Positions 10,692 to 47,230 of a stretch of DNA of 64,000 nucleotides are shown in pieces. Positions within the stretch are counted from its first letter, which is position 1, and each line of letters starts with the position of its first letter. The notes beneath the pieces were generated by a model. The model was not told the DNA's origin. It saw only the letters and a program-made list of their open reading frames with translations, and made no database searches. Source of the stretch: Promethearchaeota archaeon (GTDB lineage: Archaea; Asgardarchaeota; Lokiarchaeia; Sigyniarchaeales; SOKP01); NCBI GenBank assembly GCA_016839915.1, contig JAEOTH010000125.1, positions 1 to 64,000 on the forward strand, in the 5' to 3' direction. The position numbers were made by a program, and so were the translations under genes.

Positions 10692-10870
10692 AATATTAAA
10701 ATGTTAGTCAACATATATAAATATATACCGTTTTTTTAGACTTAGACTTAAATGATTTTAAAATACAAATATGTTAATTTTTAGTATATAAAACAAAGAA
10801 TTATTCAAAAAATTTTAAAAATTAGAATTTAATGGAAATATAATCAAAATTAATTATAAATTTAGTAATA

Positions 10871-11068
10871 ATGGGAATAAACGAACCGAATGTATTAAAA
10901 CGGATTAAGACTATTGAAGAAAGGTTAGATAAAATCGAAGAACGTATTTCAAGCTTAGAAAATAGATTGGGTCGCTTTCCATCTCCACCATCACCAAGAC
11001 CCAGCCCGATACACCCTCCAAAACCACCTGGTCCTCCAGGAACGCCCCCAGAACCTTTTCGATTTTAA
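10871..11068 (+). CDS. Small protein: coiled coil plus proline-rich tail
   Basis: VLKRIKTIEERLDKIEERISSLENRLG then RFPSPPSPRPSPIHPPKPPGPPGTPPEPFRF. Confidence 0.6.
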   Translation: MGINEPNVLKRIKTIEERLDKIEERISSLENRLGRFPSPPSPRPSPIHPPKPPGPPGTPPEPFRF

Positions 11069-11225
11069 ATAGTTTATAAACATTCATTTTAGGCAATGAA
11101 AAAGTCAATTCGTTTTCATTTTAAACCTTAGTTCAGATTATTGGACAAAAATCCTTAATATCTCATTTTGATAATAGTTATCTAATAAAAAGTAAATTAA
11201 AAAATAAAAAAGGTTGTGATTTAAA

Positions 11226-11456
11226 ATTACCCAATATCGATTTCGGCTAACGGGTGTGCCCCCTGACCAAGCCATCAAGCTTATCGAGCTAGATCCAAAC
11301 AATTCGATAGCAGAAATTAAGAAAACTGTACAGCGTGAGTATAAGCTAAATCCAATATTAGCTATACAATTTATATTTAAAGGAAAGGTCCTACCAGATC
11401 AATTAAAGTTCGCAAAGATTGGAATCCATCCAAAGAAAGACGTTATAAAACTTTAG
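11226..11456 (+). CDS. Ubiquitin-like beta-grasp protein (track start GTG 11256; fold continues upstream to ATT 11226)
   Basis: ITQYRFRLTGVPPDQAIKLIELDPNNSIAEIKKTVQREYKLNPILAIQFIFKGKVLPDQLKFAKIGIHPKKDVIKL matches the ubiquitin pattern (FKGKVLPDQ...IGI...DVIKL); frame continues after TAG to GGY-stop. Confidence 0.7.
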   Translation: MTQYRFRLTGVPPDQAIKLIELDPNNSIAEIKKTVQREYKLNPILAIQFIFKGKVLPDQLKFAKIGIHPKKDVIKL

Positions 11457-11556
11457 AGCTTTCCTCTAAGGTATAGAACGGTCATGGCTACGCAAGCGGG
11501 TGGATACTAGTCAATAAAGCATTCGAATAGGAGATATATTTATCACGGGGTTAAAT

Positions 11557-11603
11557 GGGAGAGAATAACAATGTTATTTCTCCCTAATTAATTTTTTTTT
11601 TTT
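11557..11603 (+). terminator. Intrinsic-type terminator: hairpin plus T-run
   Basis: GGGAGAGAATAAC-AAT-GTTATTTCTCCC stem followed by TAATTAATTTTTTTTTTTT. Confidence 0.65.
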
Positions 11604-11632
11604 AATTATGAAGTTCAAACTAAGTTTGTATT

Positions 11633-12058
11633 TTAATGCTCAATAGTTTGGAAATTCATGAAATCTTCAGAATTGAGAATTTCGACAATCTTTTCAGAAA
11701 AAGTTTTAAAATTGGAGATCTCTCCATTAAAATCTTCTAAAATGTCTTTATATTGGTTAATAAAGCTCGTAAGAATAGTTTCAGATATTGATTCTAATAA
11801 TTTTTTATCAAAATCTCTGTTTTCGCATTTTAGAACTAAATGGAAAAGAGATTTATGGGTATAAAAGAAAAATATAAAACTGTCAAGTACTAAGGTTCTT
11901 AAACTTTCTTTAAAACTTTGTTTTGTAAACCGACAGATGATGTCAAAATAACTTGCTAGGGATTGTTCATCGCCTATTTTTTTTCTATCAATAAAATTGT
12001 GATAAAATAGCGCTATCCCTGCTTCATTTATAATCATTAGTTGTTGGATCATTTTCAC
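11633..12058 (-). CDS. Longin-like domain protein (candidate)
   Basis: MIQQLMIINEAGIALFYHNF...DEQSLASYFDIICRFTKQSFKESLRTLVLDSFIFFFYTHKSLFHLVLKCENRDFDKKLLESISETILTSFINQYKDIL: beta-beta-alpha-beta-beta-beta-alpha-alpha longin-like order. Confidence 0.55.
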   Translation of the reverse strand: MKMIQQLMIINEAGIALFYHNFIDRKKIGDEQSLASYFDIICRFTKQSFKESLRTLVLDSFIFFFYTHKSLFHLVLKCENRDFDKKLLESISETILTSFINQYKDILEDFNGEISNFKTFSEKIVEILNSEDFMNFQTIEH

Positions 12059-12218
12059 TAATTCTTATTGATTCCTGTTATTGGAGATTTTATATCAACT
12101 AAAAATATGTACAAATTTATTTTTAAACTTTTATTTTAAAATTTATTAAAATTAGAATAATTTTTCAATTATCTTTATTAAATATGATATGAAATAGACT
12201 TCAATGGTGATCTTTAAT

Positions 12219-15206: not shown

Positions 15207-15824
15207 ATGACGGAAGATTTGGCTGAAAAAACTGAGAAAATTCAATTAGAGGGAATAATTGAAAAAGATAAGGTTATAATTTCTGATAAGAATGGGATTG
15301 AAGAATTTTATAATACATCTTATATAGGAACAATAAAGAAACATAGTAAAGGTCAAGAATTTTTAATGCTTGAGCCAACAGAAGTATTGCTTCTATGTGA
15401 ACGGAACCGTATATTAGTATGGGAAGATAATGATAAAAATCAGAAATTACATGATTTTGAGAGTCTGCTCACTTATTTCACTCAATATGATGATAGGCTT
15501 TGGCAAAAGTACATAATTTATATGGATTTACGAAAAAGAGGCTATATTGTCCGTACTGGTTATGGAGACGGATTAGATTTTCGAGTATATAAAAGGGGAG
15601 CTGATTTTGAAAAAGATTCAGCGAAGTTTCTAATATTCCCTGTATTTGAAGGGGGTCCCATTGAACTAAGAGATTTAGATAAAATGTCTAGAGTTGCCCT
15701 GAGTTCTCGAAAGGATTTGATTGTTGCTACCGTAGATAGATTAAGTAAACCAATTTATTACAGTGTTAAAAAGTTCCAGATTTTAAATAGAGGAGAGGAT
15801 ATTGATATAGATAATGCCAGATAA
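15207..15824 (+). CDS. endA: tRNA-splicing endonuclease
   Basis: YIIYMDLRKRGYIVRTGYGDGLDFRVYKRG...KFLIFPVFEGGPIELRDLDKMSRVALSSRKDLIVATVD. Confidence 0.9.
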   Translation: MTEDLAEKTEKIQLEGIIEKDKVIISDKNGIEEFYNTSYIGTIKKHSKGQEFLMLEPTEVLLLCERNRILVWEDNDKNQKLHDFESLLTYFTQYDDRLWQKYIIYMDLRKRGYIVRTGYGDGLDFRVYKRGADFEKDSAKFLIFPVFEGGPIELRDLDKMSRVALSSRKDLIVATVDRLSKPIYYSVKKFQILNRGEDIDIDNAR

Positions 15825-43758: not shown

Positions 43759-44484
43759 ATGTCTCATCTACCTATAATACTATTTGATTTTGATGGCGTT
43801 ATTATTACTCAAAAAGCTCTTGAATATACAGCGTCTAAGTTAATGAAAAATAAGTTCTATCAATGGAAAAACATAGAAAATATGAGATTAATAGATTTTG
43901 CGAGACTATTTGAAGAATCAGACTCAAAAAATAGACTAGTGGCTTTAAAACGAATAAATAAAGTCTACAAACCATTTATACATAGTATTTGGAGGAGAAA
44001 TTTATTTTTTATAAAATTTAGACGAATATATCCGAAGCTTGAAAAGTTTGAGACTTTAAAACCTAATCTTAAAGAAGTTTTAAATCAACTAAAAAAGAGT
44101 GGAATGATCTTAGGAATTGTTTCTAACACTAGTAAAAAAAGATTAGATAAATTTAGAAAAAGACTAAATTTGGATAAGTTTTTTTCTGTCTTTATTTCTC
44201 GTGATGATTCCCCTTTTAGAAAACCAAGCCCGTACCCAATTATAGCAGCATTAAAGGAACTTAAGAAAAGTATCAATTATTCAATAAATAAAGACAATGT
44301 TTATTATATTGGTGATCTTCCCGCAGATATTGAATGTGCTAAAAATGCAGATGTCAAAAGCATAGCTTTACTTTCTGGTCATGGTACAAGAGAGGGTTTA
44401 GAAAGATCTAACCCTATATTATTGGTTCCAGATGTTAAGGATATTTTGGAAATTGAGCATTTCAAAAAATTCTTATTAGATTAA
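43759..44484 (+). CDS. HAD-superfamily hydrolase
   Basis: ILFDFDGVIIT; LGIVSNTSKKRLDKF; DDSPFRKPSPYPIIAAL; YYIGDLPADIECAKNADVKSIAL. Confidence 0.92.
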   Translation: MSHLPIILFDFDGVIITQKALEYTASKLMKNKFYQWKNIENMRLIDFARLFEESDSKNRLVALKRINKVYKPFIHSIWRRNLFFIKFRRIYPKLEKFETLKPNLKEVLNQLKKSGMILGIVSNTSKKRLDKFRKRLNLDKFFSVFISRDDSPFRKPSPYPIIAALKELKKSINYSINKDNVYYIGDLPADIECAKNADVKSIALLSGHGTREGLERSNPILLVPDVKDILEIEHFKKFLLD

Positions 44485-44503: not shown

Positions 44504-47230
44504 ATGTTTAATCTTAAAGAGTTTGAGAATAATTTAATTTTTGAAAAAGTAGATAAATTGAATAAGTATCTAAGTAAAAATAAAGTTGATAAAATTACAA
44601 AGATACTTGATGAATTTCAAAATTTATTAAACAAACAAGAATATATTGTTTCAATAACATACATCTTAAGTATTTTAGCAGAAAAAAGATTTAATCTCAT
44701 TTCTGAAGGATTAATAAAAAAAAGTGGGAGTTTCCTTCACTCCCCAAATGTGAAATTAAAACTAAATTCACTAATTATAATTGGATTTGCAATGCTTGCA
44801 AATTCTAAATATATTGACGAATACTCTCAGGATTTTTTAAAATTGCTTTTTGAAGATTCTGATGATATTAGAAATAATATACATTATTTTTTATTAAAAT
44901 TGGTTGATATAAAACCAAATTTGGCAAAAGGCAATGTAGATATTATTCTAAAAAGTCTAATTAAAGAAAAAAACAAAAATAATATAATTTCTATACTAAA
45001 TTTACTGGATTATTGCGATGAATTTGAATTTGACCAGTTATACCTCTTTAGAGATATTTCAAAATCATTAATTACCTTATTTGAAGATAAAAAAACTTCA
45101 AAAATTTATATTAAATTAATAATACTCATAAAAAAATTCTTTCCACAGCTCAACCAACTTGATCTAGAACCCCTAGATACTAAAAGAATAATAGAATTAT
45201 TGGACAATCAATTCATAATGAAAAGACATAATTTTACTAGATTAAGCAAGAATAAGGATTTAAAATTAAAGGATTATTTAAAAAACTTCATGAAATCTGA
45301 TATAAAAGATAAGAAAATCTATTTTTATGCAACGACAAAAGAAAATATAGTTTTTATCTACGAGTTAGAAAAAAGTAAGCTAAATAGATTCTTTAATGTA
45401 AAGATAAAAATATCTGATAAGAAAATTCATGAAACGTTTTCATCGGTTATCGATAATGATTCAGAACAAAAAATTTTTGTAAAAACTTTAAATAACTTAA
45501 AAATAATTGATGGGTATTATTCTAATATTGGATTTTTTTATCCTTTTGATTACTTTAAGTTAAAATTCTTAGATAATTTGCATAATAGTGGATCTATAAA
45601 TTTAAAGAATTTTAATTTCCTTCCACAGAAATTTATTGATAAGGTCATTAACTACATTTCTAAGTCTACAAATCAGATATTTTTACGAGATAAGGATCAA
45701 GAAATATATACCTCATTAAAATATATTAAAGATCGAATTAATTCTGAAGCTGCAAAAAAGAGTATAATAGAATTGAAATTATATAGAGATATATTATTAG
45801 AGGAAGATTTTATAAAGTTAATAAAGAATATGCCTAGAGAGTACTTATCCGAATTTCATAAAGGAACACAGTGGTTAACTAATTTGGGGGTCCAAAAAAT
45901 TACATATGAAGTTCAAAATTCAAAAATTGTTGGTTATTTTAATATTTCTAAAATTTCAAGAAAACTAAATATAAGTGATCTACTACTATTAGATGTATTT
46001 GATCTTCTAATAGACTATAGAAGTGGAATTTGGGACAAAAATAAAAATATTTTTTATTATTCGAAATATCTCAATGATAAAATCAATGAGATCAGTGTAA
46101 TTTCTGATGAAACTGAAAAATTTAAGCAAATTGAAATGATTTCAAATGAGTTTGACATTGATAAAAATCATATATTATCTAAAATCGATGAAAACTTACA
46201 TTTAATAGCAGAAGAAATAAAACAAAAGGATAAAATAAAAATCAGCGAATATGTTGAAAAAACAGGGATGGAAGTAAATGTTTTTTTGAAATTTATTAAT
46301 GATTTAGGTATATCATATTTCAAAAAAGCAGATTTACTGATATTTAATCCGCTAAAGATAGAAGAAGCAAAAAATGATATAAAGTATATGCTAATTGATA
46401 AATCTAAATCTGTTGATTTTATTAACTTAGGAACAATGATGTCCTCCTCAAGTATAGTCGAAGATTTAATTAAAGATTTACTAGTTGATGGGAAATTAAA
46501 GGGGATTTTTCATGAAACTGAAGGACAAGTAGTTTTTTATACCGAAAGAGGAATTATCAACTTGATGTTAGAGAATAGTGTCCTCTTCTCTTTCCATGAT
46601 TTATTTTTTGAAAAAGATTTAAATCAAGCAGAAATTGATTTGTTAAGAGATGTCTTTGATGATTTAGTAAAGAGTAAAAAACTTAGAGGTAATTTTAATG
46701 AAGAAACACTGACTTTTTCTAGTGATGAGGTAATATTTGCTAAGGATTACAATATAGTCCTATTTGAATTTGAAAAAATGGTTGGGAATTACATTAAGAA
46801 GTTTGAAACAGAATTTCAAAAGATTCAGAAGATTCTGACTAAGGAGGGAGAAACAATATTTCCACAAGAAATAAAAATTATTCAAGAGACTCTTGATAAA
46901 ATTAATGTAAAATATGTCAACTGGAGAAGTGGTTTAGAAGCTTTTATCAGAAGAACTAACAAGAAATTATTAAAAGATCAAGGGATTAATGTAAAGCAAT
47001 ATAAGAAACTGTTTTTAAAAGAAAAGAAAGAAGAAATAAAATCTTTAGAAGATGATCCTGAAGTCCATGAAATATTAAATGATTTTAACAGATGGATAAA
47101 GCTCTTCAATAAATTAGAGCTGAAGTATCCAAATGTACTTTTTTATCAAAAAAGGTTAGTTAATAACCCAAACAATAAAGAATCTCGGGAAAAATATATT
47201 GAATTATTGGAGGAACTTGATTTAAAATAA
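44504..47230 (+). CDS. 908-aa protein: N-terminal HEAT/adaptin-like helical region plus UFL1 (UFM1 E3 ligase)-like tandem winged-helix region
   Basis: N-terminal helical repeats; KIKISEYVEKTGMEVNVFLKFINDLG...LLIFNPLKIEEAKNDIKYMLIDKSKSVDFINLGTMMSSSSIVEDLIKDLLVDGKLKGIFHETEGQVVFYTERGI resembles UFL1. Confidence 0.6.
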   Translation: MFNLKEFENNLIFEKVDKLNKYLSKNKVDKITKILDEFQNLLNKQEYIVSITYILSILAEKRFNLISEGLIKKSGSFLHSPNVKLKLNSLIIIGFAMLANSKYIDEYSQDFLKLLFEDSDDIRNNIHYFLLKLVDIKPNLAKGNVDIILKSLIKEKNKNNIISILNLLDYCDEFEFDQLYLFRDISKSLITLFEDKKTSKIYIKLIILIKKFFPQLNQLDLEPLDTKRIIELLDNQFIMKRHNFTRLSKNKDLKLKDYLKNFMKSDIKDKKIYFYATTKENIVFIYELEKSKLNRFFNVKIKISDKKIHETFSSVIDNDSEQKIFVKTLNNLKIIDGYYSNIGFFYPFDYFKLKFLDNLHNSGSINLKNFNFLPQKFIDKVINYISKSTNQIFLRDKDQEIYTSLKYIKDRINSEAAKKSIIELKLYRDILLEEDFIKLIKNMPREYLSEFHKGTQWLTNLGVQKITYEVQNSKIVGYFNISKISRKLNISDLLLLDVFDLLIDYRSGIWDKNKNIFYYSKYLNDKINEISVISDETEKFKQIEMISNEFDIDKNHILSKIDENLHLIAEEIKQKDKIKISEYVEKTGMEVNVFLKFINDLGISYFKKADLLIFNPLKIEEAKNDIKYMLIDKSKSVDFINLGTMMSSSSIVEDLIKDLLVDGKLKGIFHETEGQVVFYTERGIINLMLENSVLFSFHDLFFEKDLNQAEIDLLRDVFDDLVKSKKLRGNFNEETLTFSSDEVIFAKDYNIVLFEFEKMVGNYIKKFETEFQKIQKILTKEGETIFPQEIKIIQETLDKINVKYVNWRSGLEAFIRRTNKKLLKDQGINVKQYKKLFLKEKKEEIKSLEDDPEVHEILNDFNRWIKLFNKLELKYPNVLFYQKRLVNNPNNKESREKYIELLEELDLK

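Follow-up and report, generated by a model that had tools for sequence, protein, structure and literature searches.

The window (the whole stretch of 64,000 nucleotides analysed here) contains a gene for a ubiquitin-like protein (Ubl) whose reading frame stops before the Gly-Gly (GG) terminus and then continues to it, which raises the question of how this gene could yield a complete modifier. The frame at 11226-11510 translates as ITQYRFRLTG...KKDVIKL*SFPLRYRTVMATQAGGY* (asterisks denote stops). Positions 11226-11453 give ITQYRFRLTGVPPDQAIKLIELDPNNSIAEIKKTVQREYKLNPILAIQFIFKGKVLPDQLKFAKIGIHPKKDVIKL, the frame halts at the TAG at 11454-11456, and SFPLRYRTVMATQAGGY follows up to a second TAG at 11508-11510; translation thus bears out the halt and the continuation to ...TQAGGY-stop described in the earlier note, coordinates included. 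The first part of the ORF matches the Pfam ubiquitin family (E=3.9e-8, above the curated cut-off), and a search of the genome found this Ubl as the sole copy. The gene has no ATG, and its start is probably ATT at 11226; among 51 distinct orthologue proteins, 12 start at ATT and 32 at ATG, and AUU initiation in a conserved archaeal Ubl gene may be regulatory. An SD-like GTGAT lies a few bases 5′ of the ATT (11226-11228). The host is an Asgard archaeon with a draft genome of 3.65 Mb (94% complete, 221 contigs; G000), and its named relatives are mostly Lokiarchaeota MAGs.

Comparison with orthologues separates the sequence after the TAG into two parts. A six-frame search located the Ubl gene in 43 of 58 relatives; across the class, 65 of 83 genomes have it, and the GTDB collection provided 68 Ubl loci. 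In each of the 51 distinct complete orthologue proteins, the uninterrupted C-terminus is DVITVMATQAGG or close to it, and at most a few residues come between it and the stop; T75, V76, M77, A78, Q80, A81, G82 and G83 are invariant in the alignment. The window gene has ten codons (AAA CTT TAG AGC TTT CCT CTA AGG TAT AGA) between DVI and TVMATQAGGY, i.e., DVI-[KL*SFPLRYR]-TVMATQAGGY, and GG is reached only after removal of 30 nt. Because orthologues lack KL*SFPLRYR and keep TVMATQAGG, the tail that the earlier note had read as one unit is half insertion and half true C-terminus: TVMATQAGGY is genuine, and SFPLRYR belongs, with KL*, to the insertion. The suggestion of a truncated Ubl with a GG downstream by chance is excluded for the same reason, since the GG tail is the conserved orthologue C-terminus, and orthologues that stop at the same TAG without GG were sought among the 51 complete proteins and none was found. 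Exon 1 of the window gene (defined below) shares 95-99% protein identity with same-genus orthologues, and exon 2 keeps every residue of the close relative G010 with only synonymous differences; within the genus, the insert occurs in one genome only. Ubl matches that cover only part of the gene, in G005, G049 and G003:C126, lie at contig ends.

Two further Ubl loci are of interest in their own right. L038 (G048:C630:1-2600) contains a complete Ubl gene and, within an open frame of 389 codons, another Ubl sequence at 1620-1862, with an E2 match from 1949; a Ubl-E2 fusion is possible there. L034 (G007:C22:31895-32059) is a second, degraded Ubl copy in which the C-terminal half is conserved to GGY and the upstream half is broken by stops; it is possibly a pseudogene or holds a longer intron.

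The earlier note had listed a small spliced intron containing the TAG among its options, and the orthologues, the geometry of the insert and a second genome (see below) strongly support such an intron of the bulge-helix-bulge (BHB) type at 11449-11478. The features of the putative intron and its exons are as follows, with the exon 1 border set by the orthologues together with the BHB register.

11226..11448, + strand: exon 1 of the Ubl gene, ending GAC GTT ATA A, with the Thr75 codon split after its first base
11443..11446, + strand: 5′ strand of the central helix, UUAU (exon side), 4 bp, pairing with intron AUAG at 11473-11476
11447..11449, + strand: 5′ bulge AA^A, 3 bases, predicted cut 11448/11449
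11449..11478, + strand: putative BHB intron AACTTTAGAGCTTTCCTCTAAGGTATAGAA, 30 nt, holding the in-frame TAG 11454-11456 and absent from the 51 orthologues
11450..11472, + strand: intron hairpin, 9-bp stem ACUUUAGAG/CUCUAAGGU with the loop CUUUC (5 nt)
11477..11479, + strand: 3′ bulge AA^C, 3 bases, predicted cut 11478/11479
11479..11510, + strand: exon 2, (A)CG GTC ATG GCT ACG CAA GCG GGT GGA TAC TAG = TVMATQAGGY-stop

Exon 2 matches the conserved orthologous C-terminus, and excision of 11449-11478 gives DVITVMATQAGGY, with GACGTTATAACGGTCATGG as the predicted spliced junction and an 84-residue Ubl as the predicted product. A cut 3′ of the second base in both bulges restores ...KKDVITVMATQAGGY-stop, which is exactly the orthologous protein. 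Three equivalent junctions lead to the same product, and only one of them has both a 4-bp helix and 3-nt bulges; in that one, exon 1 ends with GACGTTATAA, exon 2 starts with CGGTCATGG and the intron occupies 11449-11478, the central pairs being U-G, U-A, A-U and U-A. The predicted cuts, which separate bulge bases two and three, fall at the exon borders drawn from the comparison. The combination of 4-bp helix and 9-bp stem appears in a fraction of 7.5e-6 of shuffled inserts, and the BHB geometry arises in 1.8% of cases when the hairpin is kept and moved at random. The hairpin occurs once in the genome. The outer exon-exon helix is weak in the window (a G-G mismatch, then 3 bp), and has 3 bp in the second genome and 2 bp at the second E2 site (see below); the ViennaRNA minimum-energy fold pairs the exons otherwise (-12.9 vs -9.1 kcal/mol for the BHB form). 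A group I or group II intron was rejected, as the insert has 30 nt compared with the hundreds of nucleotides of a catalytic RNA and no Rfam family matches at 10700-12200. A motif-only scan gave 113 strict BHB-like hits in the window and 96 in the reversed sequence; such motifs are common in the AT-rich DNA of this window, and the case thus rests on comparison rather than on motif scoring. The strongest motif-only candidate, at 44437-44479, is the gap between two ordinary adjacent genes.

A second genome, from another genus of the same family (E44_bin85, SOKP01000084.1; G063, locus L129), devotes 249 nt to 73 residues at its Ubl gene and carries a 30-nt insert of another sequence, placed at the very base where the window insert lies. 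There, too, the same register alone forms the motif, again with the bulges AA^A and AA^C. The central helix is UUAU/AUAG in the window and UCAU/GUGA in E44_bin85, the second pair changing from U-A to C-G, and this change in the predicted helix is direct covariation between exon and intron; on the exon side it is synonymous (GTT to GTC). The similarity of the two Ubl introns is weakly above that of shuffles (p=0.006 for the whole, 0.06 for the interior), and a common origin at the Ubl site is thus not proven. The E44_bin85 insert has no stop, so translation through the insert is formally possible in that genome.

Nine more inserts of 30-32 nt, each breaking the gene by a stop or a frameshift, lie at three sites, two in E2-like genes and one in E1-like genes. 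The search for E2 in the host genome returned a match with an internal TAA, and E2 orthologues are mostly uninterrupted. E2 inserts fall between MMHV-E and PPFFNP in G000 (30 nt), G007 (30 nt) and G020 (32 nt), and between FPE and NYPF in G005 (32 nt) and G013 (31 nt); their helices covary (ACGU/GCGU, AUAU/GUGU, AUGU/GCAU). In G007, G008, G021 and G029, the E1-like gene (~530 residues; L187, L191, L192, L193), which lies near the E2 gene in several relatives, is broken between GVGAL and GCEIAKD, a point within the nucleotide-binding GxGxxG motif, by 30-nt stop-containing inserts. Together with the two in Ubl, this makes 11 introns, spread over four sites of three genes (Ubl, E2 and E1), nine of the 11 being in genomes other than the host. 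Scored over 4 central and 9 stem pairs at the best junction, the 11 introns have 130 paired positions, against 63.3 +/- 5.5 (maximum 81) for shuffled inserts (z=12). The central helix is complete (4/4 pairs) in 8 of the 11 and has 3/4 pairs in the other three, which are three of the four E1 introns. Between G007 and G008, dN and dS of the E1 gene are 0.075 and 0.76 for exon 1 and 0.097 and 1.27 for exon 2, and the values for G021 and G029 are similar; both exons of the intron-bearing E1 are therefore under strong purifying selection (dN/dS ~0.1 at dS ~1), which argues that the interrupted genes are functional and that their two parts most likely form a single protein.

Several observations on E1 and E2 genes stand beside this set. 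Within either of two genera, the E1 introns are recognisably alike in sequence. The E1 at G002:C9:790-2013 is 99% identical to the G000 E1 (other relatives, ~90% or less; a further E1 of G002, 91%), which may reflect recent transfer or a mis-binned contig for the G002:C9 copy. An interruption of the G009 E2 is a run of Ns, and the E1 paralogue of the operon on contig C208 has isolated stops (e.g., G002, G015) that come with no extra length; neither case is an intron.

Other explanations have to be weighed against splicing. Amber readthrough or recoding by a suppressor or pyrrolysine tRNA, which the earlier note had listed among its options, would produce a Ubl with the 10-residue insertion KLxSFPLRYR before TVMATQAGG, as the frame is open from the TAG to GG. 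Such an insertion would land in strand beta-5 and its residues are missing from orthologues; a search of the genome yielded no PylS above the cut-off and only weak matches, as in most control genomes; the 31- and 32-nt sister inserts in E2 shift the frame, which rules out reading through them; and readthrough does not predict BHB geometry. This option is thus unsupported and extremely improbable. Programmed translational bypassing, in which the ribosome would hop over the hairpin and no RNA would be spliced, would suit inserts that are short hairpins of 30-32 nt, and its chance appears equally tiny: the Ubl take-off and landing triplets differ (ATA vs AGA), a codon is split at two of the four sites, and the 4-bp exon:intron helix, the 3-nt bulges and the covariation are what EndA, the tRNA-splicing endonuclease, needs, not what a hopping ribosome needs.

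A recent loss of function, by which a mutational insertion left a gene that now makes a truncated, non-conjugatable Ubl, would explain an insert with an in-frame stop in one genome of the genus only. Against it stand the synonymous-only divergence of exon 2 from G010, the insert that a second genus has at this very base, its helix covarying, the purifying selection on both sides of the stop-containing E1 inserts, and the fact that a genome with a retained E1-E2-Rpn11 operon yielded no other copy of this Ubl; it is highly unlikely. An assembly or sequencing artefact might be suspected in a draft of this kind, and its probability is negligible, given ten further inserts that share one architecture and sit at defined sites; nine belong to other genomes, and some have homologous intron sequence. 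In particular, the independent insert of E44_bin85 at the same site shows that the window insert is not an assembly error, and the sequencing error considered in the earlier note is excluded by it. The reading that the Ubl gene holds a 30-nt BHB intron at 11449-11478, spliced by EndA and the ligase RtcB to restore a GG-ending Ubl, is assigned a probability of about 0.9 from the sequence comparisons.

The consequences for the protein can be seen in a confident model of an orthologue (L079; pLDDT 90.5). The model adopts a ubiquitin fold in which residues 73-80 make up beta-5, and its Foldseek matches include ubiquitin, SUMO, NEDD8 and the Caldiarchaeum ubiquitin-Rpn11 complex. Codon 75, which the intron interrupts, falls inside beta-5, so the unspliced product ending at the TAG would lose most of beta-5 and GG. 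In the proposed splicing pathway, the Ubl transcript, once made, would fold into a bulge-helix-bulge around 11449-11478, a heteromeric endonuclease (probably the EndA alpha subunit of contig C157 with the beta-like product of 15207-15824) would cut both 3-nt bulges between bases two and three, and RtcB would join the exons. The spliced mRNA would encode the 84-residue Ubl with intact beta-5, GG and then one Tyr, and an Rpn11-like JAMM protease could trim this Tyr ahead of E1 activation and conjugation.

The genome encodes the enzymes for these steps, including one gene in the window.

15207..15824, + strand: EndA-family tRNA-splicing endonuclease paralogue (PF01974, 70.3 bits; TIGR00324 above the cut-off)

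This gene starts 3.7 kb downstream of the Ubl gene. In an alignment with M. jannaschii EndA, its catalytic His position aligns to Ser, and its product is probably a structural beta subunit and a candidate splicing factor. A His-less EndA paralogue is also found near the Ubl gene in G010, G012, G016 and G022, and the neighbourhood is conserved. The EndA subunit on C157 has Tyr, His and Lys at the catalytic positions (best solved matches, 3P1Z and 3AJV chain B), and the predicted pair matches the heteromeric type, which is reported to cut relaxed BHB motifs outside tRNA (PMC2738675, PMC6379350). RtcB is encoded in the genome. Many tRNA genes of the host (L056-L070) contain introns, several apparently at non-canonical positions, and tRNA-Gly(GCC) has a 31-nt canonical 37/38 BHB intron; a strict BHB test on ARAGORN models, whose intron borders are approximate, recovered tRNA-Gly only. 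A high tRNA intron load has been reported in other Asgard archaea (PMC11291895). tRNA-Sec is present (L074). The E1-E2-Rpn11 operon of the host genome is on contig C208, which holds, clustered on one strand, genes for an E1-like protein, an E2-like protein, an Rpn11-like JAMM protein and a larger Cys-rich (RING-like) protein (G000:C208:39500-43600; L148/L151); judged by its predicted products, this cluster is a nearly complete ubiquitination operon without a ubiquitin gene. Elsewhere in the window, 44504-47230 encodes a 908-aa protein 3′ of a HAD-like phosphatase gene, which, judged by eye, may distantly resemble the UFM1 ligase UFL1.

BHB mRNA introns are a known, very rare kind, and the host gene set and lineage are unusual here. 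Splicing of archaeal protein-coding genes is confirmed only for cbf5 in Crenarchaeota, together with one 5′ UTR substrate in Haloferax (PMC2738675, PMC7714728), so that the introns in ubiquitin-pathway genes come as a surprise. The cbf5 pre-mRNA introns of Desulfurococcales and Sulfolobales are short (16-44 nt) BHB introns with splicing confirmed by cDNA; they are cut between the second and third bulge residues, the criterion used here for the Ubl intron, and relaxed BHB forms are known substrates of heteromeric EndA (PMC2738675). The cbf5 and Ubl introns are alike in being short BHB elements in a protein gene with this cut position, in hitting a conserved site between codon letters one and two and, across the Ubl pathway, in a patchy presence suggesting gain and loss and in a hetero-oligomeric EndA. 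Unlike those of cbf5, the present introns belong to another phylum (Asgard; Lokiarchaeia) and lie at four sites in three genes (Ubl, E2-like and E1-like), and we infer from sequence a splicing that for cbf5 was seen by cDNA. Introns of archaeal pre-tRNAs have the same geometry and expected machinery, whereas the Ubl intron is in coding sequence, with a weak outer helix and no tRNA body for recognition. The Haloferax mRNA is likewise cleaved by EndA, as is predicted for Ubl, but in the 5′ UTR, restoring no reading frame. In Caldiarchaeum subterraneum, Rpn11 trims ubiquitin precursor residues after GG (PMC6043591; PDB 6FNN); that ubiquitin and the window Ubl share the ubiquitin fold, GG with removable residues and an Rpn11-like protease in the genome, the Ubl model matching 6FNN among other ubiquitins at a low structural-match identity (18%), whereas the window gene carries an intron. 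BHB mRNA introns in Asgard archaea or in ubiquitin-system genes are unreported in the literature searched, which covered few subscription papers and preprints.

As a control for specificity to ubiquitin genes, PurH has no stop-containing interruption in 49 genomes, and no short insert breaking the gene by a stop or frameshift was found at 277 other gene places in the compared loci (some duplication) or at 123 places of a separate set. E2 and E1 were examined for their membership of the pathway, not for introns, and the comparison families are few and mostly neighbours of Ubl, E2 or E1 genes; because this sample of other families is small, enrichment in ubiquitin genes is a lead rather than a result. 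A broader reading, that the ubiquitin cascade of Lokiarchaeia is the preferred host of BHB introns and that the tRNA-splicing endonuclease gates or coordinates archaeal ubiquitination, is speculative and rather unlikely. If it were true, unspliced mRNA would make only a non-conjugatable modifier and broken enzymes, as the intron sites break beta-5 and GG in Ubl, the core of E2 and the GxGxxG motif of E1.

The window Ubl would be annotated without GG, and such an annotation would be wrong. With 11 introns of one architecture at four sites in ubiquitin-pathway genes of Lokiarchaeia, gene callers would mis-truncate eukaryotic-signature proteins in this lineage. Lokiarchaeia are relatives of the eukaryotic ancestor, and the introns would tie a hallmark pathway of eukaryotes to the tRNA-splicing machinery; the introns of Ubl, E2 and E1 make the gain and loss of mRNA introns in Asgard archaea directly testable.
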